DNA from: Nitrospira sp. CR1.1
GTDB taxonomy: Bacteria; Nitrospirota; Nitrospiria; Nitrospirales; Nitrospiraceae
NCBI GenBank assembly: GCA_014055465.1
Contig: WIAF01000003.1
Location: 124,001 to 188,000, forward strand
Direction: 5' to 3'
Length of the DNA stretch: 64,000 bases
Shown here: one piece after another, positions 1 to 18,952 of the stretch
How the letters are laid out: each line of letters starts with the position of its first letter
How positions within the stretch are numbered: the first letter of the stretch is position 1
Made by a program: the position numbers and the translations under genes
Notes under the pieces: model-generated
Told to the model about the DNA's origin: nothing
The model's database searches: none
What the model saw: the letters and a program-made list of their open reading frames with translations, nothing else

Positions 1-1675
1 GCTCCAGCGCTTCGATCCAGAGCGCCACCTTGGTCAGCTCGACCGCCATGGGGTTGCGGTCCACACCGTAGAGGCAACGGCAGGCGACCTCACGCAACGC
101 ATGGCAGAAGTCGGCGGCCGAAGGGATTCCACCGGCGCGGCGGCGGGCGACGCGCGTGGCAATGCGCCGCGCCGCCGCAAGTAGAAAATGCCCCGATCCA
201 CAGGCAGGATCGATGACGGTGAGCTTTAATAGCCCTTCGACAGGATCAGCGGCCTGTGCTTCCCGCTCGTCGAGCACCGGATCGAGCGTGGTGTCGAGCA
301 GGAGTTGAACCAGACTGTCCGGCGTATAGTAAGAGCCGGTGGTTTTGCGCTGGTTACCCTTCTGCTCGGCGGCCTCCGAGGCGAAGGTGAGCGTCTTGCC
401 GTCGTCACCGAGTTGCGGCTGGAGTTCGAGCAGCGATTCGTAGACCGAACCAAGCTCCTCTGTTTCCATCGCGCGCCAGTTCACCGACACCATGCCGGTT
501 TTGTCGGAGAGCCAGGACAGGCGGTAGAGTGCCTCCATGAAGGCGCGGTTGCGCAGACGTGCGATTTCGAGATGCGGCAGCTTGCCGGCGCTGAAAAGCC
601 CGCCAAGCGCGGGCAGGCCGAGCGCTTCCTGCCCGCAGGCAAGAGCGCCGAAGACGACCTTGATACTCTCATAGCGGTCGTGGTGCTTGTCCCAGGTGGC
701 TGCACGGGCCGCTTGCGCCCGAAGTGAAGCGAGGCTGTACCCATCGGCGTAGAGCTTTCGGGCATCCGGCTTTGCCGTCTCGGGATGAAGCAGGTTCCGG
801 TCCTCGGCCACCATCAGGAAGATGAGGCGATAGATGAGGCGCAGAAGCTCGTTGAACCATTCGGTCAGGTCGATCTCTCCGGATCTCAACCGGGCAGCAA
901 GGTCGGGATTGGCTTCGAGGAAACCGGAGCCGAGCACTTTCAGCGCGGTTTCAACCTGAGCCGCCAGCCGATCGCGGGCGGCCACGCCTTCGCGAGAGCC
1001 GGCCTCACGCCAGCGTTCCAGCACGCAATCGGTGACAAGTGTGCCGACAACGCCGAACCGTGTCCGGTGGATCAGCAACCAGAGAACGGCGAAAGAGGAG
1101 GCATCCTCGTTCGTGAAGATCTGGGCAAGGTCGCCTTCGATATAGGCCGGCCGGGTCAGCGAGGCGTTGTCGCGCATGAGACGGATGATGGCCCCGTTCG
1201 TGACCAGACCCCAGAGCGCGCTCTCGCTGTCGTTGAGATAATCCTGAAGCGCAAAGGCCGGGGATCGCGAACGGTCGGTCGAAAGCGTCGGACTGCGCCT
1301 ATCGAGCTTTTCCTCGGAAGGCGGGACGACGACCACAGGGACGCGGCCACCGGCGAGGAAAGAGATCACGCCATCGGCGGAAACGAGATCGTTGAAGCCG
1401 AAGGTTTCCGCCAAGAAGTCTCGCACGAAGCGCCGTGTCACCTCGACCGAGGGATTTTGAAGTTTCGCGAAGGCGTCGAAATGGGACTGGCCGACGCGGA
1501 AGGCGGTGGAAATCTCTTCGCGGATCGTCAGCCCCTTGCGGATCCGGTAGTCCACTTCCGTCTGTTCGAAGGCTTGTCGTCGGTCGATGCTGGAAACCAT
1601 GGCCGGCGCGATGAGGTTGCCCTCCAGCAAGAGCGAGGGCCAAGCCGACATGTCGGTGACGAGCTTCCGCGCCAT
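1..1675 (-). CDS. Eco57I/PglX-like adenine-specific DNA methyltransferase (3' end beyond the window)
   Basis: Open reading frame on the minus strand starting at the ATG at 1673-1675 and running off the left edge, so about 558 residues are visible. Methylase signatures are clear: TGSYYTP near residue 445, VIDPACGSGHFLLAAAR (AdoMet motif I) near residue 484, and LYGVDRNPMAVELTKVALW near the edge. The catalytic NPPY motif would lie beyond position 1. The roughly 440-residue N-terminal part is the helical region typical of Eco57I-type and BREX PglX/DISARM DrmMI enzymes. The start lies 3 bp after the stop of the upstream SNF2 helicase, so the two are almost certainly co-transcribed. In related systems the enzyme methylates host DNA to mark self. 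It could be the methylase of DISARM, of a BREX-like locus or of an uncharacterised relative; the missing 3' flank prevents a firm choice. Confidence 0.88.
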   Translation of the reverse strand, partial: MARKLVTDMSAWPSLLLEGNLIAPAMVSSIDRRQAFEQTEVDYRIRKGLTIREEISTAFRVGQSHFDAFAKLQNPSVEVTRRFVRDFLAETFGFNDLVSADGVISFLAGGRVPVVVVPPSEEKLDRRSPTLSTDRSRSPAFALQDYLNDSESALWGLVTNGAIIRLMRDNASLTRPAYIEGDLAQIFTNEDASSFAVLWLLIHRTRFGVVGTLVTDCVLERWREAGSREGVAARDRLAAQVETALKVLGSGFLEANPDLAARLRSGEIDLTEWFNELLRLIYRLIFLMVAEDRNLLHPETAKPDARKLYADGYSLASLRAQAARAATWDKHHDRYESIKVVFGALACGQEALGLPALGGLFSAGKLPHLEIARLRNRAFMEALYRLSWLSDKTGMVSVNWRAMETEELGSVYESLLELQPQLGDDGKTLTFASEAAEQKGNQRKTTGSYYTPDSLVQLLLDTTLDPVLDEREAQAADPVEGLLKLTVIDPACGSGHFLLAAARRIATRVARRRAGGIPSAADFCHALREVACRCLYGVDRNPMAVELTKVALWIEALE

Positions 1676-1678
1676 GGC

Positions 1679-4444
1679 TCAGGCCTCTCCCGGCATCAGA
1701 ACGAACAGGCCGATCACATCCGGCGGTAGAACGGCCTCCACGGTCACGCGCGAGGCTGACCCTGACGCTGCGCGGAGGCGGGCATGGTCCTGCATGAGCT
1801 CTTGTGCGCGCGATTGGGCGAAGTCGGCGATCGGTCCTTCGAGCAGACCCGGCAGGGCCTCCTTCGCCTTGGCGATGAACCTGTTGCGTGCGACAGGCGC
1901 GAGATCGGACGTGGCGGGTGTATTGAGCCATTCTCGGGCAGTTTCGCCAGCCGCCACGATCCGGCCGCCTTGGATCGCGACAAGCGCCGCCTCCTCAGCC
2001 AGCAGCAACCGTTCCTTGCGAGCATGGACTGTCAGCTTGAAGCGTATACGAAGCAGAAGCACACGAGTGATCTGCTGCACGGTTGTGGTCGGCCAGGCGC
2101 CGACCCGACCGATGCCGAGACTTGACAACGCCTCCGGATCAAGCGACGCCTCGACCAGCGCTTCAGCAAGCGTGGCCGTCAGGGGATGTGTCCTAGTGAG
2201 CAATGCGGTGCCCGACAGCGCCGGTTCAGCCGTCACCAGACGAACCGATCCGCTGAGATCGTGTTCCGCCAAACGCTCCCGCAGACCGGCATCAAGGGCA
2301 TCGACATGTGCCAGAAGCACAGCTTTCCGGGTTTCGAGCGGCACACCGAAACAGGCCATCGCGCGTTCGACGAATAGCTTCGCATCCGCCGGGGAGCCGA
2401 GGAGCGTGCGGACCTTCTCCCATTCCGGGGCGACTTCCTGCGGCTTCACCGTGTTCTGGGCGAAACGCGCACGGGATCGCTTCTCGTTTTCGGATGCGTC
2501 GCGCCATCGCGCCTCCATGACCTTGGCACCGTCGTCGAGGCGAAGATCGAGCGTGAGCTGTGGGGATACGCCACGGCGCAGCATCATGGACGCCATCAGC
2601 GCATCCGTCACCGGCCCCCGCTCCTCGGGGAGCGGTACGGTCACGCCTGTCGCTTTTCGGATTTCCTCGGCCTTGCGGAGGATGACCTCGAGCACTGCCC
2701 CGTCGATGGCGCTGTCCGGCGAGAACATCATAATCGATCGGACGAGTTCCGCGGGTTGACCGAAGCGATCCACCCGCCCCTCACGCTGCTGGTGCCGGGT
2801 CGGATTCCAAGACAGGTCGTAATGGACGACTGTATCGAAGAGCTGCTGAAGATTGATACCTTCGGACAGGCAGTCGGTAGCGACAAGGATACGCTGAACC
2901 GGCTTTTCGTCGTCCACGGTCGCCATGTCGGCAACGCGATCGCGACGCTCATCCGGCGTAAGCACGCCCGTCACGGCTTCGATCGCCAGTTTCGGGAAGG
3001 CCCTGCACAGACCATCATGGACATGCTCGGCCGTCGCCAGATAGCGACAGAAGACAACGGGATTTGCGCCCGTCTTGATGAGGGGCGTCAGCACATCGAC
3101 GAGGGCAGTCAACTTCGGATCAGGCTTGCCGACCAATTCTTCGGCGCGCTTCACCAAGGCGAGCAGCTCCGGTTCGGCGTCAAAAGCCGTGCCCGGTTCA
3201 AGATCGACCGCGTCCTCGTCGTCCCCGTCATCATCATAAATTTGAGGCTCGAGGCGATCGTTCTCGTTCGACATGCGGTTCCTCAGCGCGCTCAGGGCTG
3301 CGGCCGGCGAAGAGCCGACGCAGCGCATCAGTGCCAAAGTGCCCCAGAAGGCCAGACGCCGCTCGCGCTGCCCGGATCCTGCCCGAGACACGATGCCGAA
3401 ACAGTAATCGAGTACGGCGTCCTGGAACCCGCGATAGCCCTCAGAGAAACGATAGTCAAACTCCATCGTCTCATGCTTCGGGAAAGCCCGGTTTTCGTCC
3501 CAATCCCCCGAGACGAGATCGATCCGGCGACGTTGCACGAAGTGCCGGGCCAGCCGCTCGCGATACCGCGTGTATTCAAAGTCCATCGCAGCAAATGATG
3601 GGTCGATTAGAGAGAGAAGACGCGCGAATGCCTTTTCGTCCCCGGAATGGGGCGTCGCGGTCACAAGGATCATCCGCCGCTCGGGATTTCGGGCCAGTTC
3701 CGACAGAAGCTCGAAACGCTGCTGCCGTCCCTGATGCGTGCCCACACAGGTATGCGCTTCATCGACGATGACGACATCCGGGCAGGTGCGCGCAAAGCCT
3801 TCGCGGCGTTTCTCTGCTTTGATGTAGTCGAGGCTGACGACTGTGAAGGGATAGGCGTCGAACAGGGTCTGCGCAAGCGGCAGACTGCGTTCCAGGCGGC
3901 TCGCGGTGCCTGACGTGACTGGGACGGCATCGATCCCGAAGCGTACCTTCAGCTCTCCGACCCATTGCCCGACGAGGTGCGGCGGGCAGAGCACCGAGAA
4001 GGCATCCACCTCACCCCGGTCCATCAGTTCGCGCAGAATGAGGCCGGCCTCGATCGTCTTGCCGATGCCGACGTCATCCGCAATGAGAAGGCGCGGCACC
4101 GGCAGACGAAGCGCCATCAGCAGCGGCACGAGCTGGTAGATCCGCGGTTCGAAGGTGATCTGTGCGGCGGACCGGAAAGGGCCCGCACCGCGGCGCAGGG
4201 TCAAGCGCATCGCATCCGCGAGTAATGCCGCTTTCGCCTGAACAGTGGTCGTGGCGTCGGCAGGCAGATCAAAACGGGCTGGCTGGACCGGTAGGATCTC
4301 GAGCTTCGGGTCGAGGATGACCATATCACTCTCGCTGCCAGAGAGTGGGCGAAGCGCCAGAATGCCGTCCTGCGGCGCCGGCAGCGCAACCCATTCGCGC
4401 CCGCGAGCACGAACCAGATCTCCGGGGGCGAAGTTCACTGTCAT
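1679..4444 (-). CDS. SNF2/RapA-like helicase, DrmD-like
   Basis: 921 residues starting MTVNFAPGDLVRARGREWVA, a short SH3-like N-terminus often seen in defence-associated SNF2 proteins. The ATPase motifs are intact: ADDVGIGKT (Walker A, about 122-130), VVIVDEAH (DEAH, 228-231), LVTATPHSG (motif III), and in the C-terminal lobe LVATDCLSEGINLQ and QREGRVDRFGQ (motif VI), the RapA/HepA type. The start codon overlaps the stop of the upstream 1726-aa helicase by ATGA, and the methyltransferase begins 3 bp after its stop. The pairing of this helicase type with an Eco57I-like methylase and a DUF1998 helicase resembles class I DISARM (drmD-drmMI-drmA-drmB). Its role in such systems is restriction of non-self DNA by translocation; the exact function here is inferred from context. 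Confidence 0.87.
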   Translation of the reverse strand: MTVNFAPGDLVRARGREWVALPAPQDGILALRPLSGSESDMVILDPKLEILPVQPARFDLPADATTTVQAKAALLADAMRLTLRRGAGPFRSAAQITFEPRIYQLVPLLMALRLPVPRLLIADDVGIGKTIEAGLILRELMDRGEVDAFSVLCPPHLVGQWVGELKVRFGIDAVPVTSGTASRLERSLPLAQTLFDAYPFTVVSLDYIKAEKRREGFARTCPDVVIVDEAHTCVGTHQGRQQRFELLSELARNPERRMILVTATPHSGDEKAFARLLSLIDPSFAAMDFEYTRYRERLARHFVQRRRIDLVSGDWDENRAFPKHETMEFDYRFSEGYRGFQDAVLDYCFGIVSRAGSGQRERRLAFWGTLALMRCVGSSPAAALSALRNRMSNENDRLEPQIYDDDGDDEDAVDLEPGTAFDAEPELLALVKRAEELVGKPDPKLTALVDVLTPLIKTGANPVVFCRYLATAEHVHDGLCRAFPKLAIEAVTGVLTPDERRDRVADMATVDDEKPVQRILVATDCLSEGINLQQLFDTVVHYDLSWNPTRHQQREGRVDRFGQPAELVRSIMMFSPDSAIDGAVLEVILRKAEEIRKATGVTVPLPEERGPVTDALMASMMLRRGVSPQLTLDLRLDDGAKVMEARWRDASENEKRSRARFAQNTVKPQEVAPEWEKVRTLLGSPADAKLFVERAMACFGVPLETRKAVLLAHVDALDAGLRERLAEHDLSGSVRLVTAEPALSGTALLTRTHPLTATLAEALVEASLDPEALSSLGIGRVGAWPTTTVQQITRVLLLRIRFKLTVHARKERLLLAEEAALVAIQGGRIVAAGETAREWLNTPATSDLAPVARNRFIAKAKEALPGLLEGPIADFAQSRAQELMQDHARLRAASGSASRVTVEAVLPPDVIGLFVLMPGEA

Positions 4445-7400
4445 CGGGACGTCCCCCCGAATAGCGAGATCATGGCGTCAGGCACGCCTGCGGCTGCGGT
4501 TCCCGGCAACTCAAACAGCGTCCAACCTTTGGCTTCAGCTACCTGGCGCGTTGCCTCAGCCAAAGGAGAGACACAAGCCGCGACAAAATGACTACGCCAG
4601 GCGAAGTTCATCTCCTGATTGGAAAAACAGACAGTGGCGCCATCCGGAGGCGGCATCCCCGCCTGCTTGAAGGCGTTTTCCCATCCCCCGCCCTCGGCCG
4701 TCCGACCCGGCGCTGTAGCAAGCACCACCTGCCCGCGCGCCAGATCGACCAGCATCTGTTTAGCTTGATTGCTTGTCCGGTCGATTAGCTCGTGATCGGG
4801 CTGGTTAAAGTATGAGAGCAAGCATCGATAGCATCCGCGAATACAGGCCTCTCCTTCCCGGCTGACGAGCAGCTTCGCCTCGCCCGCTGCGATCGCACCA
4901 TCGACCTTCTCGAAATGCATCAGGGTCAACGCTTCGCGGGCGACCTTGCCGAGCGCTTGTGAATCCTCGATCAGGCGGCTCAACACCCCCGCGCCGCCCT
5001 CTGTGGCTTCATACGCCAGGATGGCACGACGGTTATCGCGAGCAGGCAACGGTTCGCCAAGGACCTCGCCTTCCTCTAATTGGAAAATGACCTCGATGCC
5101 TCTCAGGAGTGCATGCTGAACCGTTGCAATTGTCCCAGGCTCATAGGCCGTAGGCTCAGTGAAACGGAAGAGCAGCGCGTTCTTGTGGTCGCGAACGATG
5201 GGGACGATCCGAACCGGCTTCACAACGTCCGGAGGCACATCGACATCGGGATCTTCGTCTTCAGACTTTCTCCAGTAGCCACTGCGGGGATCGATATGGA
5301 AACCGAACACGGTCTGATTTGCGCGCCGCTTCAGCCCCTTGTTAATGCGACTGATCTCGGCGCTATTGGCATATTGCAGATTGAAAATAGAAACATCATC
5401 GCAACGGAAGTCGGCCTCGCTGGTCTGCACCCGGCCGTCTCGTTTCGGCCAGGAAAAGACGGTCTGGATATCAAAGCCCTGCCGGACGCGCTCTTCGTCA
5501 TTGGCCGTGATCCGTTCAGCTGGCGCGGCCTCTACGTTGTCGATCCGGAGCGTCCGCTGCACAGGCACCTCGCCTGCCATTGGACTGTTGCATGCATGGC
5601 AGCGCTCGACCTCGCTGTCATGACATGCGCCGCAGTTCGAGCAGATGTAGATATCTCGAGTAGCGAGTTCTGTCCCGTCTCCAGTCCGGACTTCCGGCGG
5701 CAGCTTCGCCTTCATGACCCGGTAGGCACGGCCTTCGTGGTAGATCAGACTGCGCGGGCCGAATTCAGAAATAGCCAGGAAGCGTGCACGCTGGAGGAAT
5801 GAGCCGGTTTTTCCCTCGCCGGGGATGAAGGCATAGAGCGGCAACCGGGGGAAATTGTAGCCCGGCAGGAAACCTTCCGTAGCGAGATACCGGTAAGAGT
5901 AGAAATCCGAACCGTTGGTGGCCCTCCCCTGTTCGAGAATGGCGATCTGGTCGCTCGCTTGCATCTGCGCTGCCTTAATCCGCCGACGGTCCGCGCCCGA
6001 GAGGCCAGTGATTTCCGAGCGGGCGTTGGCTTCCAGCAGCTGCGTTCGAGCCGAGTTGTACAGTTCCCGCCAACGATCGAAGGCATGATTGAACTCCAAA
6101 GGCGCGTGCTGGGCCACTTGGGCGACGAACTCATCCGGCTCATTCATCCAGGCCGGCTTTCGGCCGTCCACGGAATCGAGAATCTGATCGAGAATCCGCT
6201 TCATCGGAGCATGCGCTACCTTCGCCAGTTCAGGCCGGTCGATGACGTCGTAGATTTCCGTCTTCAGCGGGTACCCCGTCTGCGTCAGGTCGAGGATTTC
6301 CGGGATGTCGGGGCGAAGGGCCAGCTTCGTTTCCGCGAGCCACACGGCCTGCAGATGCGATCGAACAAGCTCCTCATTGGTAATGTCGAGCGCCGGCGGC
6401 CGAACAACACCCGCTACCATCTCGTTACGCCGCTCGAAAAAATACTGGTCGTGTGGCGATTGCGCCGCGCAATAGGTCACGATGACGGCAGCCTGCCCGG
6501 AACGCCCGGCACGGCCAGCGCGCTGAGCGTAGTTCGCCGGCGTCGGCGGCACGTTTCGCAGATAGACGGCATTAAGTGCCGAGATGTCGACGCCAAGCTC
6601 CATGGTCGGCGAACAGAACAGTGCAGGTAGAAACTGCGCTGACTCTCCTGCTGCCTTGAGATCGGCGGCACTCTTGGTGAGATTCTCCCGGTCTTCCTTC
6701 TCAAACCGGAAGCGCCACTCACGCCATTCGCGCTGTCGCTGGGACACCTGGGCCGTGTGCTCACGGCCTTCGAGGCCCCAAAAACTACTCTGGCCAGCTT
6801 TCAGATCGGTAGCAATCTCATTGTAGAGATCGTGAAAGTAACGGTTTCCTTGCGCTGTGCCTGTCCGGATGGCTTTGCCGGGCACGATACGAACGGCTGA
6901 CGGCGACAAACGCCACCCTTGCAGATCCGCCTCGATGTCGACGCGCGACACAAGTCCCTCACGGGCTAAGAGTTCCATCAAGCCCGTCATAACTGACAGG
7001 TAATCTCCTCTGCCCAGCTTGGTCCCGATGACGCTTGTGCGATTGATGAGGCGCGCGATACGGGAATTGTGCCCTGCGCGAACGATCGTCTGTTCTTCCC
7101 GCAGTCCCACCCGGTCCTTACCAGGCGCTTGCAGAAACAGGGTCGTGCGGCTTCTGGGCGTCTCCTTTGCGTCAATCGCCCAAGGAGCGCACAGAAGATT
7201 TCGAGACTTCTGAGCGACGGTATCGAGAACGGTCAGATCGAGTGCTTCGGTTCCGACAGCCAGACCGTCGAGCATGGCGCCGAGGACCAGATTCAGCATG
7301 GCCTTTCGCCTGGGCACGTCGAGCGTCCCAAAATCCGGTAAGAGGGCGGCGAGGCGATCCGTATCCTCGGCGATATCGTCGAGGCCGATGAACGCGACGT

Positions 7401-9621
7401 CAATGAGCTTAAGAACCGAGAGACTCGGATTGGTGTAACGCCACCCTCGGCGCAGGTCGGTCCAGAACCGATGGGCGAGCACCTTCGCAAAGGACCTTTG
7501 CGCATCTTCACGAACGACGGCGCCCGCCTCGGGATCCAACATCCAATGGATGCGCGCATCCCTGTTAGTCGCAGTGAATCCGAGCGCTTTCACGACCCGC
7601 AGACCGAATTCGTCCTCGGCTATGCCATCGTCACCCGCGTCCAACACCGCCCGCAGAATTGCGCCGCGCAGGAGGCTGACGAACAGAAAGTCGTTGAAGT
7701 GGCCGGCCTGAAGGGCCGCGTCCTGCCGGTTGTCCGTGAAGCCAAGGAGCTTCCGCTTTTCTTTGGGAACGCCACTATTCCGTCCGTTCATCCATTCCAG
7801 GGCGGTCGAGACGAGAAGCGTCGTGGCCGAGCTTCGGCCTTCGCCCGAAAGGCCTGCAAGTTTGGTACGCTCCCGCATACTGGAATGCGGCTGATCGAGG
7901 CAGCATGGGCAGAAGCCGAACTTGCCGGAAATGAACCAGAAGCTCTGCCCCGATAAATCATACCGTCCATCCGGGGCTACCGTAACCATCTGAGGGACCC
8001 GGCATTTCCTATTCGCCCGAATCCGCTCGATACCATTGCGCTCCTCGCGCCAATCCTCGGGAAACGTCTCGATCTCACCCGTGAAGTCATAATGGGAATC
8101 GCCATCTCCTGTGGGGATCAGATAGCCTGCGGCGTCCCCTTCCTGATCATCAAGTGGTACATCGTCGATGTTCCTTGGCAGAAACAGAACCCCGTCTGCG
8201 TCCTCAGTCTTGGTGACGACGTGGACCTCATATCCGCATTCCCGGCAGAATCTGGTCGGATAGAGGCGATGGCCCGGCGCGCTGGGATCTTCGAGCTGAC
8301 CTTCAAACAAGACATTCCTGGGCTTCTCAGTCAGCGTGGTGAAAACTTCGCCTGCGCCGGAGATGAACTGGTGGAGTTTAAAGGCCAGGAATGCACCGGT
8401 CCCCGAGCCGCCTCGCTCCATTTCCGCCATGCTGATGCGCGTCAGGAATGTCTCAAGGCTGCTTCGGCAAACCTCGATTTCTACGCCGCTATCCTTTGAC
8501 AGCAACGCAACGGCCTCTTCAAATGGCTGTGGCTTCTTGCGCTTGAGCTCCTGCGCATCATCCAAACCGATCGCCAATTCTGTCCAGACCGCCAGGGGGT
8601 GCTTCCTGAGAACCTCATCGGTCAATACATCCGGGAGCGTAGCCGTCAACACAGGCGCAAGCTCCGGCCGCACGTCATCGAGCTTTAACCGATCGTCCGT
8701 TGCCCGTTCAAGCGATTCGTCGATGACCGCATCCGGCCCGATGGAGACCCCGAAAAGACGTGACGCAACGTCCGCTACAGCCTGTGCGCGGTTGGCGTCG
8801 GATCCTTCGCTCGCCATGGTGGCTGAAGTCCCAATACAAATCGGCGCCTTGTCTGGCGTGCAGCGGTTGCGAAGACGGCGGACGAGGATGGCGACATCGG
8901 CGCCCTGGCGGCCACGATAAGTATGCAGCTCGTCAAGAATGATGAAGTCCAAACCGTTCGCGTTCTCCATGACCTTGGTGTCGAGGTTGTCCTGCCGCGT
9001 CAGGAGCAATTCGGCCATCATGAAGTTGGTGAGGAGGATATCCGGCGGGTTATCCGCGATCCTCTGCCGCTCCTCCTCCCTTTCCTGGCCAGTGTAGCGT
9101 CGCACCACCGGCTTGATCTCCGTTGGCAGACCAGATTGAGAGATGAATTTCTCGATCTCGTTGATCTGACTGTTCGCCAGCGCGTTCATTGGATAGACAA
9201 TAATGGCCCTGGTTCTATGCGCCTTGCCCGCTTTCCGCGCACGTACGATTGCGTCGACCACAGGCACGAAAAAGCAGAGCGACTTACCCGAGCCGGTTCC
9301 GGTGGTGACCACATAACTCTCGCCCGCCCGCGCCTTGGCGATAGACTGCGCCTGGTGGCGATAAAAACGCAGAGGTGCCGGTCCAAATCGGAATATTCTG
9401 CCTGTCGCTTCGTCAAGATCGCCGGAGGCAACCAGTTCGTCAACGGTCGGCCCCCGAAGAAACCGGGGATTGATAGACAGCAGCGCATCCGGCCAGAAAC
9501 GTCCCTCGTCATACTGACGGTCAATCTCGGACTTCAGGTCTTCAGATCGAATAGTGCTGAAGGAACGTGAGAAGCGGGCGTAGGAATCGATGAGGCGATG
9601 ATCAAATTCGAATGCCTTCAT
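4441..9621 (-). CDS. Large DExH helicase with C-terminal DUF1998/MZB zinc domain (DrmA/DrmB- or MrfA-like)
   Basis: 1726 residues from the ATG at 9621, chosen because GGAGGGAGAT lies 8 bp upstream; an in-frame start 39 bp further up lacks this site. Helicase motifs: TTGTGSGKS (Walker A, about 106-114), IILDELH (DExH, 228-233), ICIGTSAT (motif III), then SPTMELGVDIS and QRAGRAGRSGQ (motif VI). Four cysteine groups follow: FCRECG, FCPCC, CSNCGACHDSEVERCHAC and, near the C-terminus, CIRGCYRC after AYEATEGGAGVL, the signature of the DUF1998/MZB domain. In DISARM the helicase (DrmA) and DUF1998 protein (DrmB) are separate; here both features are in one chain, as in MrfA/Hrq1 helicases but more than twice as long. 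It is the first gene of the three-gene operon and overlaps the next by ATGA. Confidence 0.85.
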   Translation of the reverse strand: MKAFEFDHRLIDSYARFSRSFSTIRSEDLKSEIDRQYDEGRFWPDALLSINPRFLRGPTVDELVASGDLDEATGRIFRFGPAPLRFYRHQAQSIAKARAGESYVVTTGTGSGKSLCFFVPVVDAIVRARKAGKAHRTRAIIVYPMNALANSQINEIEKFISQSGLPTEIKPVVRRYTGQEREEERQRIADNPPDILLTNFMMAELLLTRQDNLDTKVMENANGLDFIILDELHTYRGRQGADVAILVRRLRNRCTPDKAPICIGTSATMASEGSDANRAQAVADVASRLFGVSIGPDAVIDESLERATDDRLKLDDVRPELAPVLTATLPDVLTDEVLRKHPLAVWTELAIGLDDAQELKRKKPQPFEEAVALLSKDSGVEIEVCRSSLETFLTRISMAEMERGGSGTGAFLAFKLHQFISGAGEVFTTLTEKPRNVLFEGQLEDPSAPGHRLYPTRFCRECGYEVHVVTKTEDADGVLFLPRNIDDVPLDDQEGDAAGYLIPTGDGDSHYDFTGEIETFPEDWREERNGIERIRANRKCRVPQMVTVAPDGRYDLSGQSFWFISGKFGFCPCCLDQPHSSMRERTKLAGLSGEGRSSATTLLVSTALEWMNGRNSGVPKEKRKLLGFTDNRQDAALQAGHFNDFLFVSLLRGAILRAVLDAGDDGIAEDEFGLRVVKALGFTATNRDARIHWMLDPEAGAVVREDAQRSFAKVLAHRFWTDLRRGWRYTNPSLSVLKLIDVAFIGLDDIAEDTDRLAALLPDFGTLDVPRRKAMLNLVLGAMLDGLAVGTEALDLTVLDTVAQKSRNLLCAPWAIDAKETPRSRTTLFLQAPGKDRVGLREEQTIVRAGHNSRIARLINRTSVIGTKLGRGDYLSVMTGLMELLAREGLVSRVDIEADLQGWRLSPSAVRIVPGKAIRTGTAQGNRYFHDLYNEIATDLKAGQSSFWGLEGREHTAQVSQRQREWREWRFRFEKEDRENLTKSAADLKAAGESAQFLPALFCSPTMELGVDISALNAVYLRNVPPTPANYAQRAGRAGRSGQAAVIVTYCAAQSPHDQYFFERRNEMVAGVVRPPALDITNEELVRSHLQAVWLAETKLALRPDIPEILDLTQTGYPLKTEIYDVIDRPELAKVAHAPMKRILDQILDSVDGRKPAWMNEPDEFVAQVAQHAPLEFNHAFDRWRELYNSARTQLLEANARSEITGLSGADRRRIKAAQMQASDQIAILEQGRATNGSDFYSYRYLATEGFLPGYNFPRLPLYAFIPGEGKTGSFLQRARFLAISEFGPRSLIYHEGRAYRVMKAKLPPEVRTGDGTELATRDIYICSNCGACHDSEVERCHACNSPMAGEVPVQRTLRIDNVEAAPAERITANDEERVRQGFDIQTVFSWPKRDGRVQTSEADFRCDDVSIFNLQYANSAEISRINKGLKRRANQTVFGFHIDPRSGYWRKSEDEDPDVDVPPDVVKPVRIVPIVRDHKNALLFRFTEPTAYEPGTIATVQHALLRGIEVIFQLEEGEVLGEPLPARDNRRAILAYEATEGGAGVLSRLIEDSQALGKVAREALTLMHFEKVDGAIAAGEAKLLVSREGEACIRGCYRCLLSYFNQPDHELIDRTSNQAKQMLVDLARGQVVLATAPGRTAEGGGWENAFKQAGMPPPDGATVCFSNQEMNFAWRSHFVAACVSPLAEATRQVAEAKGWTLFELPGTAAAGVPDAMISLFGGTSR

Positions 9622-14339: not shown

Positions 14340-14644
14340 TCCAACCAGGTATAGGAAACCACAATTCAGCACCAGAAATATCTGGTGAGCATCCGCAACA
14401 ATAGGCTCCACGCCACATCAGCAGAAAACGGCTTTCAACTTCTTCGAGCAAGCAACCCGGTGTACCCTTCGAGAGCATAGTTAGGGACTCAAGACGCTTT
14501 ACTAGCTGCCCGCAACTAGAGAGCCAATAGTCCTTGATGGGCAACACCGGGGGTCGAACGATATGTGCGACCAGGCCGAAGATAGCCACCAACCTAACGG
14601 CGCTAGCACAACGTACCAGCGGTTCTTCTTTATGGAGGCATTCG
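14340..14644. other. Gap without a convincing gene
   Basis: About 300 bp between the MATE gene and the HEAT-repeat protein. Only a weak reading frame on the minus strand is present, with no ribosome-binding site and no recognisable family. The leader of the following gene lies at its right end, with GGAGG at about 14,634. Confidence 0.5.
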
Positions 14645-17600
14645 ATGCTTCAGGACCTAAGCACGGACACCCGAATTCAGTGCCAGCATCGCCACCTAGC
14701 CTTTCCTTGGGCAAAATACTTCACGGCTATTTCTTTTCTCATGTTTCTGCTCACGAGGAGCGTTATAACGCCCCTCGTCACGGATGCCGCCAGCCCTGAT
14801 TCAGCTTCAGACTCCACTGCCTCAACACGATCAGAACTCCATGTCGTAGCCGTTTCTGATGGCCTCATGCCAAACGGAACAAAAAGGCCGTGGGGAGAGT
14901 CAAGTCGATTGCCTGCTGAAGTCCATGTGAACGTAACAGTTCTGGATGTTCCTGTTGATCTTTTTTTGGTGGCTTCTGCCTGGCCAGTCAACCCCACCTC
15001 TAAGCCAATCACATGGAAAATTCATGCAAGCCCTGGCGTCACTATTGCACGAGTAGTCATTAGTGGCGATGGGCTTCAATTCGTTGAAGGAGATATCCGC
15101 CGGGAGCAATGGACAGTAATCCCCAGCTCAAAAGAGCTAGAGTTACCACACACGCCAAAAAACCATAACATTTTCACCAAGAAAACGACCGACTTGTTTG
15201 GGACGGTTCCTGTCACGTACCAATTCTTTGAATATGGTGGGAACATCCTTGTTGATGGAATCACAACTCAGTGCGAGTACAGGTTTGGGCAAGACATAAA
15301 TAGAGAGCTGGAGCAGAGGGAGTCTCCGCGAGCCCTTCCTGCTCTCGACACCTTATCGAGAAGCCCACAGGTCAAAGATCGGGAACAGGCTGCCATAGGA
15401 TACCGGCTGCACTGCCAATCTGCCATACCACTCCTTTCACGATTAATTGAGGACCCGGCGCCCAGCGTACGCAAGCTAACCATTGAGACTCTTGCTTCGC
15501 TGAAAATTGGGACCGAGCGATTTGCTCCCGTACTGAAAGTGCTTGAAGATCCAGACAAGAGCGTTCGTATGACCGCGATGGATGCAGAACTATCAATGAG
15601 GGATCTGCGCGCATTACCAGCTCTCGTAAAGACTTTAAAACATGCTGACCGACGCTTTCGTCTTTCTGCATCACAAGCAGTAGTCGCACTTGCTCCCCAG
15701 ATCTATTACCATAAATTTGGTATTACGCTTCGAGATGAAGACTTAGACTTTCGAAAAGATACTTTCAAAGCGTTCGTTCCAGACTTCATCGACGCGCTGG
15801 AAGATCAGAATCCAGAAATCAAGGTTAATATGGCACGGGCTCTGAGCACACTAGGTTCAGTTAGTGAAGCCGCAGCTCCTTCACTCGTGCGCTTGGTAAC
15901 CCATGACGATATGGCAGTGAAGAACGCGGCAGCGTTAGCGTTACAAGGTATAGGCCTGACCTCGGTCGAGTCGGTTTTGGCTCTTGTTGACGCGAGAGAA
16001 TCAGCAACGGATGAGCTCCGCAATGTAATCGACAAAGCCATTGAGGCGACAAACACCTCTGTAATGCCGCAGTTAGAGCGGCGACTACGAGCCGCTTCCT
16101 CAGACAGTGACCGCCTCCGTCTCGTCATAGGGGTTCGCTTAGTGGGACAATCGTACTCCCCACTCATTCCATCCTTACTGGAACTTTGCACTAGTGATTC
16201 TATGCGGATTGCCTCCGAAGCGGAATTAGCGCTTAGTATCGTGGGGCCTCCAGGAACAGATGAAATACAAACACTCCTACAGGCTCTCACTCACCCCAAT
16301 AGCCGGATCAAAACACAAAGTCTGAAAGTATTGGCTCCATTGGGAGCACATGTGCCGGAGATCCCCCCTGCGGCGGCATCCCTAGTACAGGATAAAGATC
16401 CTGCTGTGCGCACAGAGGCACGCACCGCTCTAAAAAAGATGAAGGACAAGGGAGTAGATCATTTGGTGATTCGTTTGCTCCAGGCATCGGAACAAGACCA
16501 ACCAGAATTTCTCAATGCCCTGGAGTCCATGGACAAGAACCGCATAAGAGATCGTGCCCAGGAAGTCGCACCCGTGCTGGGTGTTCTGCTTGGACATCGA
16601 GACCAACAAGTACGGGCGCAAGCGGCTTCGCTGTTACAAGAGATTGGCATATATGCCATGGAGCCGCTGATTATTCGCATATCCCAGTCGACTGGGAAGG
16701 AAGAAACTCAATTACGCGAAGCATTGCAATCTCTCGGCACGCCTCCCGTTGGCATCCTGAGGGATGTCATAACCAAAACAGATAATCCGGTGGTGGCCCG
16801 TCACGAGGCACTGACAATCCTGGAGTCGCTACGAGACAACGGCGAGAAATCCGCTGCGGATTCTTCCGTCGCATTGGTGATGTTGCTCAAGGATCAGGAT
16901 GCCGGACTACGCTCTCGAGCAGCTCAGATATTGGGAAGCTTTGGCCCCTCTGCGTCCCATAGCATTCCGAGTCTAATTGAAAGCTTGAGAGATCCACAGG
17001 AAACGGTCCGACAAAGTGCCCTGGGAGCATTAAAGCGGATAGGAAATGAAGCCCTTCCCTTGTTGATCGAAGCAGTGGAGCACGGAGACGCTGCGATCCA
17101 ACTTTCGGCAATTCGAGCAATTGTAGAAATCAATTGGGAACGCGTGCATGGGCCGGAGAAGCGGCAATTCCAAAAGGTATTGCACGCCATCTTGGAAGAC
17201 CGTGATCCCGAAATACGTTTTTATGCCGCTGTCGCCATGGCCCGCCTGCACGTGCCAGACCCTCAGGCCATCAGCATCCTGGCGAATGCGTTGTCTGCAA
17301 ACGCCCCCATGATGCGACTGCAGTCTGTTCGGGCATTAGGAAAGATTACGCCGGCAGCGGTACCTGCAAAAGATCGTCTGGTTACGTTAGCTCAAACGGA
17401 TGAGTCGAAGGATGTGAGAATAGAGGCCGTTGCCGTACTGGACCGAATGGCGCTGTTTACTGAACCTCCATTAGCAGCAACCATGGAGGCCCCAGACGGC
17501 TGTCGCTCTATGACACGATCCAACTTAGCGCTCTCTCTTCGAGACGCCCATGCCAAAGCGCTGGCGCTGTACATGCAAACAGGCCATGCCGAGGATGCCA

Positions 17601-18952
17601 TGCGCATGTTAGTTAGCGCATGCGTCCATCAAGCCGGTTTCTTCCAGCAGGATGATCGCTCAAAAGGGCTTTCCAAGGTTGAGTATGCCACCATACTGAA
17701 CGACTTCGCCTTTTTTGAACTCGAATACTACAAGAACCTACCCCTCGAAAAGCAGCCCCTCAGCCGAGCCGTGCTAGGCGATGCGATTGCTCAGCTGACC
17801 GCAATACTTGACCTGCTTCCACGCCGGGCTGTTGCACATTTAAATCTCAACGAAGCCCTGTTACTCCATACCCAATTTCTAGAGATCGACAGGTTGATCC
17901 AACATTACAAACACTACAAGCAGTTTTCGAAGCGATCTTTCGATGCTACAGGTGAATGGCTACTGTCACTTTCTCCGAATACCGATGTCTGCCATTTTGC
18001 GGTGGCTCTCCGAAACAAGGGTCATCTAATGAATGCCTCTGCCATCACTGACAGGGGATTTATTGACATAGACAATGATGGCCTACTCGACCGAGTCACA
18101 GCCAACCGTAAAACACCGACCGAGGTAGCTTCGCTCACTATTTTATACGGCGACCCGGATAAACAGGATGAACCAAGTGAATCGCTTGAGGGAGATTACC
18201 TCCCTCAGCCAGATGTGTATGGATCAAGCAACCTTCTGGTTCTTGGTTTCAAGCAGAAGTACTACGTTCTTCATTACACCGACACCTCTCATGGTGTCGT
18301 GCTGACTCACCTCGGAGAACACGACGATCAAGGAGAGAAAGTGATCTGCGAATTCGCCAATACCGCCACCGTGTCTCTGCCTAAAGAGATCGACAAAAAC
18401 ATGGCACAGCTCGGCAAAGACCTCTTACGCAACACGATCGCATTTAGCGCGGCGCAACAAAGCTACCAGGTCTTGAGTAACGTGCCGGCAAAGCTCGAGC
18501 AGAACCTTCCTACAGAAAGAACGTTCAGAGGCACCGGCACCCTTTTATGGGCTGGGCAGATCGACATTGACAACGATGGAAAACCGGAGGCGATGGCTTC
18601 AGTGCGTTTTTACGATTCGCATGGCATACCATTCGACCTTTTCGTGAAATGGGATCCGCTTTCGGTAAGCGTTTCAGACGATTGGGTAAATCGTTTCTTA
18701 ATGGAACAAGCCAGGGCGGGGTTCACCTTGCGGCTGTTTACCTGGAAAGGGACGACCTATCTCGAGAAAAGAGCGGACATGAACACAGTCTTTGCCCATG
18801 AGATTCTCCGACTTAGCGCGAATAAGGCCGACACCGTCCTGGCATTCGACATTCAACTTCAAAGCCAATTTTCTAGATACGGCAAACATCCGAAGCGAAC
18901 GGCAGGGAATCATCCTGCCCCTGTCAAGGTCATCGCAAATATCCCGCGATAG
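14645..18952 (+). CDS. Exported HEAT-repeat protein with EF-hand-like calcium motifs
   Basis: 1435 residues from the ATG at 14645, chosen because GGAGG precedes it by 6 bp. Residues about 20-45 are a hydrophobic export or anchor segment (YFTAISFLMFLL) followed by a Ser/Thr/Asp-rich stretch. Residues about 230-980 are a long run of HEAT/PBS-lyase-type repeats, recognisable by units such as DPAPSVRKLTIETLASL, DPDKSVRMTAM and DPQETVRQSALGALKRIG. The C-terminal third contains two D-x-D-x-D-G motifs, DIDNDGLLDRV near residue 1140 and DIDNDGKPEAM near 1305, as in FG-GAP/dockerin-like calcium-binding loops. The base composition is lower in GC than its neighbours. It probably acts as an envelope scaffold for protein binding; no specific function is recognised. 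Confidence 0.8.
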   Translation: MLQDLSTDTRIQCQHRHLAFPWAKYFTAISFLMFLLTRSVITPLVTDAASPDSASDSTASTRSELHVVAVSDGLMPNGTKRPWGESSRLPAEVHVNVTVLDVPVDLFLVASAWPVNPTSKPITWKIHASPGVTIARVVISGDGLQFVEGDIRREQWTVIPSSKELELPHTPKNHNIFTKKTTDLFGTVPVTYQFFEYGGNILVDGITTQCEYRFGQDINRELEQRESPRALPALDTLSRSPQVKDREQAAIGYRLHCQSAIPLLSRLIEDPAPSVRKLTIETLASLKIGTERFAPVLKVLEDPDKSVRMTAMDAELSMRDLRALPALVKTLKHADRRFRLSASQAVVALAPQIYYHKFGITLRDEDLDFRKDTFKAFVPDFIDALEDQNPEIKVNMARALSTLGSVSEAAAPSLVRLVTHDDMAVKNAAALALQGIGLTSVESVLALVDARESATDELRNVIDKAIEATNTSVMPQLERRLRAASSDSDRLRLVIGVRLVGQSYSPLIPSLLELCTSDSMRIASEAELALSIVGPPGTDEIQTLLQALTHPNSRIKTQSLKVLAPLGAHVPEIPPAAASLVQDKDPAVRTEARTALKKMKDKGVDHLVIRLLQASEQDQPEFLNALESMDKNRIRDRAQEVAPVLGVLLGHRDQQVRAQAASLLQEIGIYAMEPLIIRISQSTGKEETQLREALQSLGTPPVGILRDVITKTDNPVVARHEALTILESLRDNGEKSAADSSVALVMLLKDQDAGLRSRAAQILGSFGPSASHSIPSLIESLRDPQETVRQSALGALKRIGNEALPLLIEAVEHGDAAIQLSAIRAIVEINWERVHGPEKRQFQKVLHAILEDRDPEIRFYAAVAMARLHVPDPQAISILANALSANAPMMRLQSVRALGKITPAAVPAKDRLVTLAQTDESKDVRIEAVAVLDRMALFTEPPLAATMEAPDGCRSMTRSNLALSLRDAHAKALALYMQTGHAEDAMRMLVSACVHQAGFFQQDDRSKGLSKVEYATILNDFAFFELEYYKNLPLEKQPLSRAVLGDAIAQLTAILDLLPRRAVAHLNLNEALLLHTQFLEIDRLIQHYKHYKQFSKRSFDATGEWLLSLSPNTDVCHFAVALRNKGHLMNASAITDRGFIDIDNDGLLDRVTANRKTPTEVASLTILYGDPDKQDEPSESLEGDYLPQPDVYGSSNLLVLGFKQKYYVLHYTDTSHGVVLTHLGEHDDQGEKVICEFANTATVSLPKEIDKNMAQLGKDLLRNTIAFSAAQQSYQVLSNVPAKLEQNLPTERTFRGTGTLLWAGQIDIDNDGKPEAMASVRFYDSHGIPFDLFVKWDPLSVSVSDDWVNRFLMEQARAGFTLRLFTWKGTTYLEKRADMNTVFAHEILRLSANKADTVLAFDIQLQSQFSRYGKHPKRTAGNHPAPVKVIANIPR

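Follow-up and report, generated by a model that had tools for sequence, protein, structure and literature searches.

The five-gene operon at the left edge of the DNA analysed here is best read as a variant of ARMADA type I that bears an HNH gene and is augmented by an SMC gene, neither DISARM nor Lamassu, and we consider it likely that this HNH-armed branch is a DNA-targeting anti-phage system with a Lamassu-like sensor module. This one Nitrospira cassette appears to unite elements of two immune systems already known. The window, that is the whole stretch of 64,000 nucleotides, comprises C3:124001-188000 of the 4.44-Mb genome of a Nitrospira sp. An original prediction, made from the letters of the window, had singled out three genes at its left edge, a fused DExH helicase, an SNF2 helicase and a methylase, and was incomplete, as the methylase gene runs past the edge of the window. 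The new content beyond that view is two downstream genes and a nuclease domain of the helicase that is predicted to be dead. Together with the sequence to the left (locus L003; a window position is the L003 position minus 10000) the following features are found:

Window 4441..9621, minus strand: YprA/DruE-like DExH helicase, 1726 aa from ATG, with fused MZB/DUF1998 C-terminus
Window 9660, minus strand: alternative TTG start of the YprA/DruE-like helicase, giving 1739 aa
Window 8809..9360, minus strand: DEAD domain of the YprA-like helicase (Pfam PF00270, E 3e-26)
Window 4819..5118, minus strand: MZB (DUF1998-type zinc) domain of the YprA-like helicase (Pfam PF09369, E 9.4e-8)
Window 4453..4701, minus strand: Vsr-like domain at the helicase C-terminus, predicted inactive (alignment columns and model)
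Window 1679..4444, minus strand: RapA/BrxHII-like SNF2 helicase, 921 aa (ORF and profile searches)
Window 1..1675, minus strand: N-terminal 558 residues of the Eco57I/PglX-like adenine methylase (profile searches)
L003:6849-11675, minus strand: whole methylase gene, 1608 aa, running left past the window edge
L003:6849-7391, minus strand: C-terminal extension of the methylase, about 180 aa, outside the window
L003:4883-6862, minus strand: SMC/Rad50-like, LmuB-like ATPase, 659 aa, outside the window
L003:4080-4886, minus strand: HNH_2 endonuclease, 268 aa, outside the window
L003:3390-3477, plus strand: tRNA-Ser beyond the HNH gene, outside the window

The genes are arranged in the order helicase, SNF2, methylase, SMC-like ATPase and HNH with junctions of -4, +3, -14 and -4 bp. 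The trio of fused helicase, SNF2 helicase and methylase was confirmed at the coordinates first proposed for it, all on the minus strand, as were its 4-bp overlap and 3-bp gap, and Pfam upholds the Eco57I/PglX-like, RapA/SNF2 and DUF1998-type identities, with DEAD, Helicase_C and MZB domains in the helicase, SNF2-rel_dom and Helicase_C in the SNF2 protein, and Eco57I and N6_Mtase in the methylase. The SMC-like ATPase contains the motifs GSGKT, CQIC and HDSPRE. In the adjoining region the window encodes a HEAT-repeat protein of 1472 aa (14534-18952, plus strand), for which no relation to the operon was seen.

To which defence system does this operon belong? The original prediction saw in the trio either a DISARM variant or a separate, not yet named relative, and class I DISARM indeed shares the activities of an SNF2 protein, a methylase and a YprA-family helicase; moreover, the SNF2 protein scores on DrmD profiles (253 bits in PADLOC, 289 bits in NCBIfam) and the methylase matches DrmMI. 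Nevertheless, membership in DISARM is extremely improbable, since the helicase is not split into DrmA and DrmB, with the MZB domain fused in one ORF, and reaches 272 bits for DruE versus 54 bits for DrmA, a phospholipase D gene such as DrmC is found neither in the operon nor in its leftward extension, the NCBIfam DISARM scores are far under the curated cut-offs (DrmD 288.7 of 610, DrmA 14.9 of 999), and a named family, ARMADA type I, fits better. What stands of the original view is thus a DISARM-related but separate system with a fused last helicase, and the leftward extension, proposed as a way to find a phospholipase D or other partner, yielded the SMC-like ATPase and the HNH gene instead. 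The curated cut-offs of the NCBIfam models for DISARM, Dpd and BREX were missed by all operon proteins. Dpd was rejected on DpdJ (83 of 800) and DpdE (195.3 of 500) and on the lack of a DpdA-type gene in the operon, Druantia on the lack of DruH and of DruABCD/FGM partners among the five operon genes, and Hma on cut-offs and missing partners. Druantia III (DruE/DruH) shares with the window operon that DruE is the top PADLOC family for the window helicase, but DruH is missing here and DruE III comes without SNF2 and methylase partners.

ARMADA was named in a preprint of September 2025 (Bell et al.; PMC12458937), the main text of which defines it by a YprA helicase resembling DruE, a helicase of the BrxHII/RapA type and a methylase of the PglX type, in that order in type I, and describes for the type I helicase a BrxA-like insert after RecA1 and, in RecA2, inserts of the MarR-like and beta-barrel zinc kinds. 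Since a named family with the same fused helicase therefore exists for the trio, which the original prediction had listed as evidence against itself, the words "not yet named" have to be dropped. Present in the window operon are the gene order of type I and a YprA-family helicase with fused MZB/DUF1998 that is nearest to Druantia DruE, and there is no ArmD (UvrD-RelE); it differs in the Vsr domain, predicted to be dead, the added HNH gene and the added SMC gene with methylase extension. HNH or SMC partners are not mentioned in the preprint's main text (PMC12458937), and no published description of the architecture of dead Vsr, HNH gene and SMC gene with methylase extension was found. For comparison, authentic genes of ARMADA II and Druantia III were taken from E. 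coli ATCC 8739 (L136). ARMADA II of this strain has distant homologues of all three trio proteins (29% identity over 631 aa for SNF2, 22–34% for helicase fragments), but differs in its order SNF2-methylase-YprA-UvrD/RelE, in intact Vsr acids in ArmC and in the lack of SMC and HNH genes. The helicase tree, built without a published type I reference, puts 45 type-I-like loci on one side and ArmC-II with DruE-III on the other (100), the latter two being the preset outgroup, on very long branches.

With the PADLOC library of 2023, among whose models ARMADA does not figure, the defence-finder search advised by the original prediction does not return one system; the helicase goes to DruE (DruE1, 2.6e-81) and the SNF2 protein to 'DpdE' or DrmD, and the methylase, ATPase and nuclease match DrmMI/type IIG, LmuB and a generic HNH, respectively. 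An assignment to ARMADA type I would enable defence finders to annotate correctly what that release splits among DruE, DpdE, DrmMI and LmuB. The PADLOC 'DpdE' model PDLC02853 scores 646 bits along the entire SNF2 protein. As the NCBIfam DpdE equivalog stays under its cut-off (195 of 500), we presume that this PADLOC model was derived from ARMADA-like SNF2 proteins; PDLC02853 may mislabel ARMADA genes as Dpd.

Which nuclease would cut DNA in this branch? According to the preprint's main text, published ARMADA helicases carry a C-terminal Vsr nuclease "predicted active", a feature that is typical, not defining (PMC12458937). Alignment of about 90 helicase tails revealed an intact motif PDFxY..IDGPxH in deep branches, namely Deinococcus, Thermus, Nostoc, some Actinomycetota, Bacillota and several Proteobacteria, and ArmC of E. 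coli ATCC 8739 keeps CRPDY..IFLDG. The motif is erased across the large clade to which the window belongs; in the window helicase the D/D pair of its relatives (D..IDGPxH) is replaced by N and S and the whole IDGPxH motif is missing, and its Vsr domain is predicted from the sequence to be inactive. The fold seems to be retained, as a model of the tail (pLDDT 83) aligns best with the catalytic domain of I-Bth0305I (3r3p_A; Z 7.0 over 79 residues, a middling score), a match that came from the second structural aligner only, Foldseek returning no significant match for the same model.

Loss of the built-in nuclease goes together with presence of a separate one. Among loci with enough sequence the Vsr acid pair is intact in 23 and lost in 53, and the HNH gene is found in 49 of the 53 loci with a lost site versus five of the 23 with an intact one. 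The five loci with both nucleases form a betaproteobacterial clade, suggesting that HNH came first and that the Vsr site decayed later, and L033, a locus adjoining this clade, has lost one Vsr acid and contains an HNH gene. Exceptions are L108 and L115, which have a degraded Vsr site and in which HNH was not found; L037 has an IS21 element in the place expected for HNH, and in L098 HNH is absent from the available sequence. On the tree, HNH gain and Vsr loss amount to essentially one or two events, and the independent-pairs test, with only four pairs, has no power; the link between HNH and Vsr is therefore a consistent story that is not independently replicated. It could also be imagined that the decayed Vsr domain has kept a structural or DNA-binding role and that in SMC-bearing systems a nuclease not yet recognised, for example within the methylase as in type IIG enzymes, cuts instead of HNH. 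In about 50 loci the Vsr domain has kept its length, fold and a few conserved residues, and the methylase matches type IIG profiles, but the methylase has no nuclease family match in Pfam, and the HNH_2 match of the fifth protein is far over the Pfam cut-off with the catalytic motif SHI..N retained, which renders this explanation improbable. Cutting by the HNH protein is preferred, and the branch would then illustrate how an ARMADA system changes, a separate nuclease having been gained before the built-in one died, and a sensor being swapped as a cassette together with a domain of the neighbouring protein.

The slot between methylase and HNH is variable. It contains the SMC gene in the window operon and in 27 other loci with enough sequence, is empty in others (e.g., L042, L043, L061), and elsewhere holds an HD hydrolase with a small gene (L049, L052), an AAA_15 ATPase (L027) or, by weak matches, UDG-like (L046) and IrrE-like (L051) genes. 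A methylase C-terminal extension of 148–205 aa is present in 28 of 28 loci with SMC, and in 45 of the 49 loci without SMC the methylase tail has at most 41 aa, the four with long tails being deep-branching. The SNF2 tree implies 17 changes in SMC presence, and all of 15 independent pairs agree with the extension (p 6e-5). In addition, extension and SMC co-diverge: across 27 loci their identities correlate with r 0.93, or a partial r of 0.92 when the methylase core is controlled for (permutation p 2e-4, null maximum 0.30), albeit tight linkage alone could make the two travel together, whereas the correlation of the extension with its own methylase core is only 0.27. In line with this, identity between the sister systems L073 and L074 is 83% in SNF2 and 75% in the methylase core but falls to 21% in SMC and 12% in the extension. 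Another pair, L045 (Paracoccus denitrificans) and L046, has 95% DNA identity through both helicases, is broken in mid-methylase and in the slot, and is 93% identical again from the HNH start. This pattern and the co-divergence indicate that HNH belongs to the constant part and that SMC and extension form an exchangeable unit, with a slot junction that, at the level of sequence, lies within the methylase gene. The break in mid-methylase is a second swapped block (L045:15084-16282) in a gene otherwise 92–95% identical, and this block is probably the target-recognition region. Could SMC and HNH then be bystanders, i.e. an independent system downstream of an ordinary ARMADA trio? Slot content is variable and trios without SMC and HNH occur in many phyla, as such a view would have it, but SMC is always paired with the methylase extension, the two co-diverge and the genes overlap, so that a bystander role is very unlikely. 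The SMC gene is preferably viewed as part of the operon, and as the slot is exchangeable, with other genes or nothing in it elsewhere, the SMC module would be an optional tuning part, not core.

What is this SMC module? LmuB profiles match 23 of 25 SMC proteins (best 2.6e-23; window SMC at full length 1.4e-12), and we are fairly sure that the protein is LmuB-like. The extension is modelled as helices with a beta-hairpin wing (pLDDT 86), and Foldseek places LmuC chains on ranks 1 and 2 of 350,542 with weak E of 0.25 and 0.45. Three LmuC entries align with the extension over 124–133 residues at Z 5.5–5.6, longer than the other winged helices listed, with tied scores. Sequence searches give no support for this likeness, neither hmmsearch against PDB, PADLOC and Pfam nor hhalign against 4, 3 and 13 LmuC/middle-component proteins, which was insignificant (13 proteins: E 0.13, probability <1%). 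LmuC is the middle component, and HNH is listed among the LmuA effector types (PMC10586767). The extension lies immediately before the SMC gene, the position that the middle component has in Lamassu/ABC-3C operons. Based on the top structural ranks and this position the extension is called LmuC-like, a call towards which the balance tips slightly. Lamassu/ABC-3C (LmuA-LmuC-LmuB) shares with the window operon an LmuB-like SMC, HNH as LmuA effector type and, by the weak structural matches, perhaps the LmuC fold before the SMC gene, but here the LmuC-like part is fused to the methylase, the nuclease follows the SMC gene and the whole is set in an ARMADA operon, the three-gene arrangement LmuA-LmuC-LmuB being absent at the window locus. 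Evenly poised is the further-reaching proposal that ARMADA type I has a plug-in slot into which a Lamassu-like cassette, an LmuC-like domain in-frame on the methylase plus an LmuB-like SMC, was repeatedly swapped, tethering an SMC DNA sensor to a restriction-type system with an HNH-replaced nuclease and creating a natural hybrid of two immune systems. If the link between SMC and methylase is true, restriction-type and SMC-type (Lamassu) immunity would be physically connected, an interaction that is directly testable.

How might such an operon act? From family and context a role in phage defence is inferred, and family knowledge suggests that the methylase would mark host DNA at the site read by its variable recognition region, and that the SNF2 translocase and the YprA-like helicase might load onto phage DNA that is unmarked or replicating, and remodel it. 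Cutting would fall to the separate HNH nuclease, encoded by the constant last gene, as the helicase sequence has lost its Vsr catalytic residues. The SMC-like ATPase is tied to the methylase extension by co-occurrence and co-divergence, and the pair could act like LmuB-LmuC: it would sense or clamp DNA ends or loops from its anchor on the methylase, and would license the nuclease. Alternatively, the operon may contain a Lamassu-like abortive unit, in which SMC senses DNA ends or plasmids and releases HNH as a toxic nuclease, the trio serving mainly targeting or immunity. In favour of such a unit are the 4-bp overlap between SMC and HNH genes, the presence of HNH domains among known LmuA effectors (PMC10586767) and the middle-component-like domain immediately ahead of the SMC gene, an arrangement known from ABC-3C operons. 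However, many loci have HNH without SMC, straight after the methylase, HNH is 93% conserved where the slot is replaced (L045/L046), and ARMADA II works without cell death: in the preprint's main text only type II systems were assayed, and they gave direct, non-abortive protection for which every gene was needed (PMC12458937). An abortive unit is therefore unlikely, though not negligibly so, and DNA targeting by an ARMADA type I branch with a Lamassu-like sensor is favoured.

Does the trio form a unit beyond this genome? Scanning genomes with an SNF2 profile of 14 members yielded 80 loci, to which plasmids and viral contigs added more. Almost all retain the trio, which occurs as a unit in about 95 loci from many phyla, far beyond chance and as the original prediction required. 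Within the genus the operon is found in two of 29 genomes (G000, G020), and the closest relatives of the window copy are alphaproteobacterial (in the tree; SNF2 87% identical to a Hyphomonas bin), together indicating horizontal acquisition. The G020 locus and that of a Nitrospira sp. record are 100% identical (L006/L042). The tRNA-Ser lies about 600 bp past the operon end, and its 3' 16 bases (CCCACCCTCTCCGCCA) are repeated 168 bp downstream of the tRNA (L003:3390-3660), resembling a small integration scar beside the operon; within the 70 kb searched to the right no right end matching this repeat was found. In another Nitrospira (L042:19867-22763) ArdC-like and TraD/TraG-like ORFs, recognised by eye, follow the operon, suggesting carriage on a conjugative element. 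The trio is present without SMC or HNH on three IMG/VR viral contigs (L119, L120, L121; L120 is truncated in the methylase), and phages or satellites may therefore carry such operons. Two metagenome-assembled genomes named Hyphomonas and Thauera (L039, L040) have operons that are 99.97% identical over 20.7 kb, reflecting either very recent transfer or a binning error. Finally, on plasmid MP1 of Deinococcus radiodurans R1 (L028:14826-19855) the methylase is in several pieces with ISDra3 between them, suggesting that the ARMADA-type operon is probably broken in this type strain, and McrB/McrC genes lie slightly further on.
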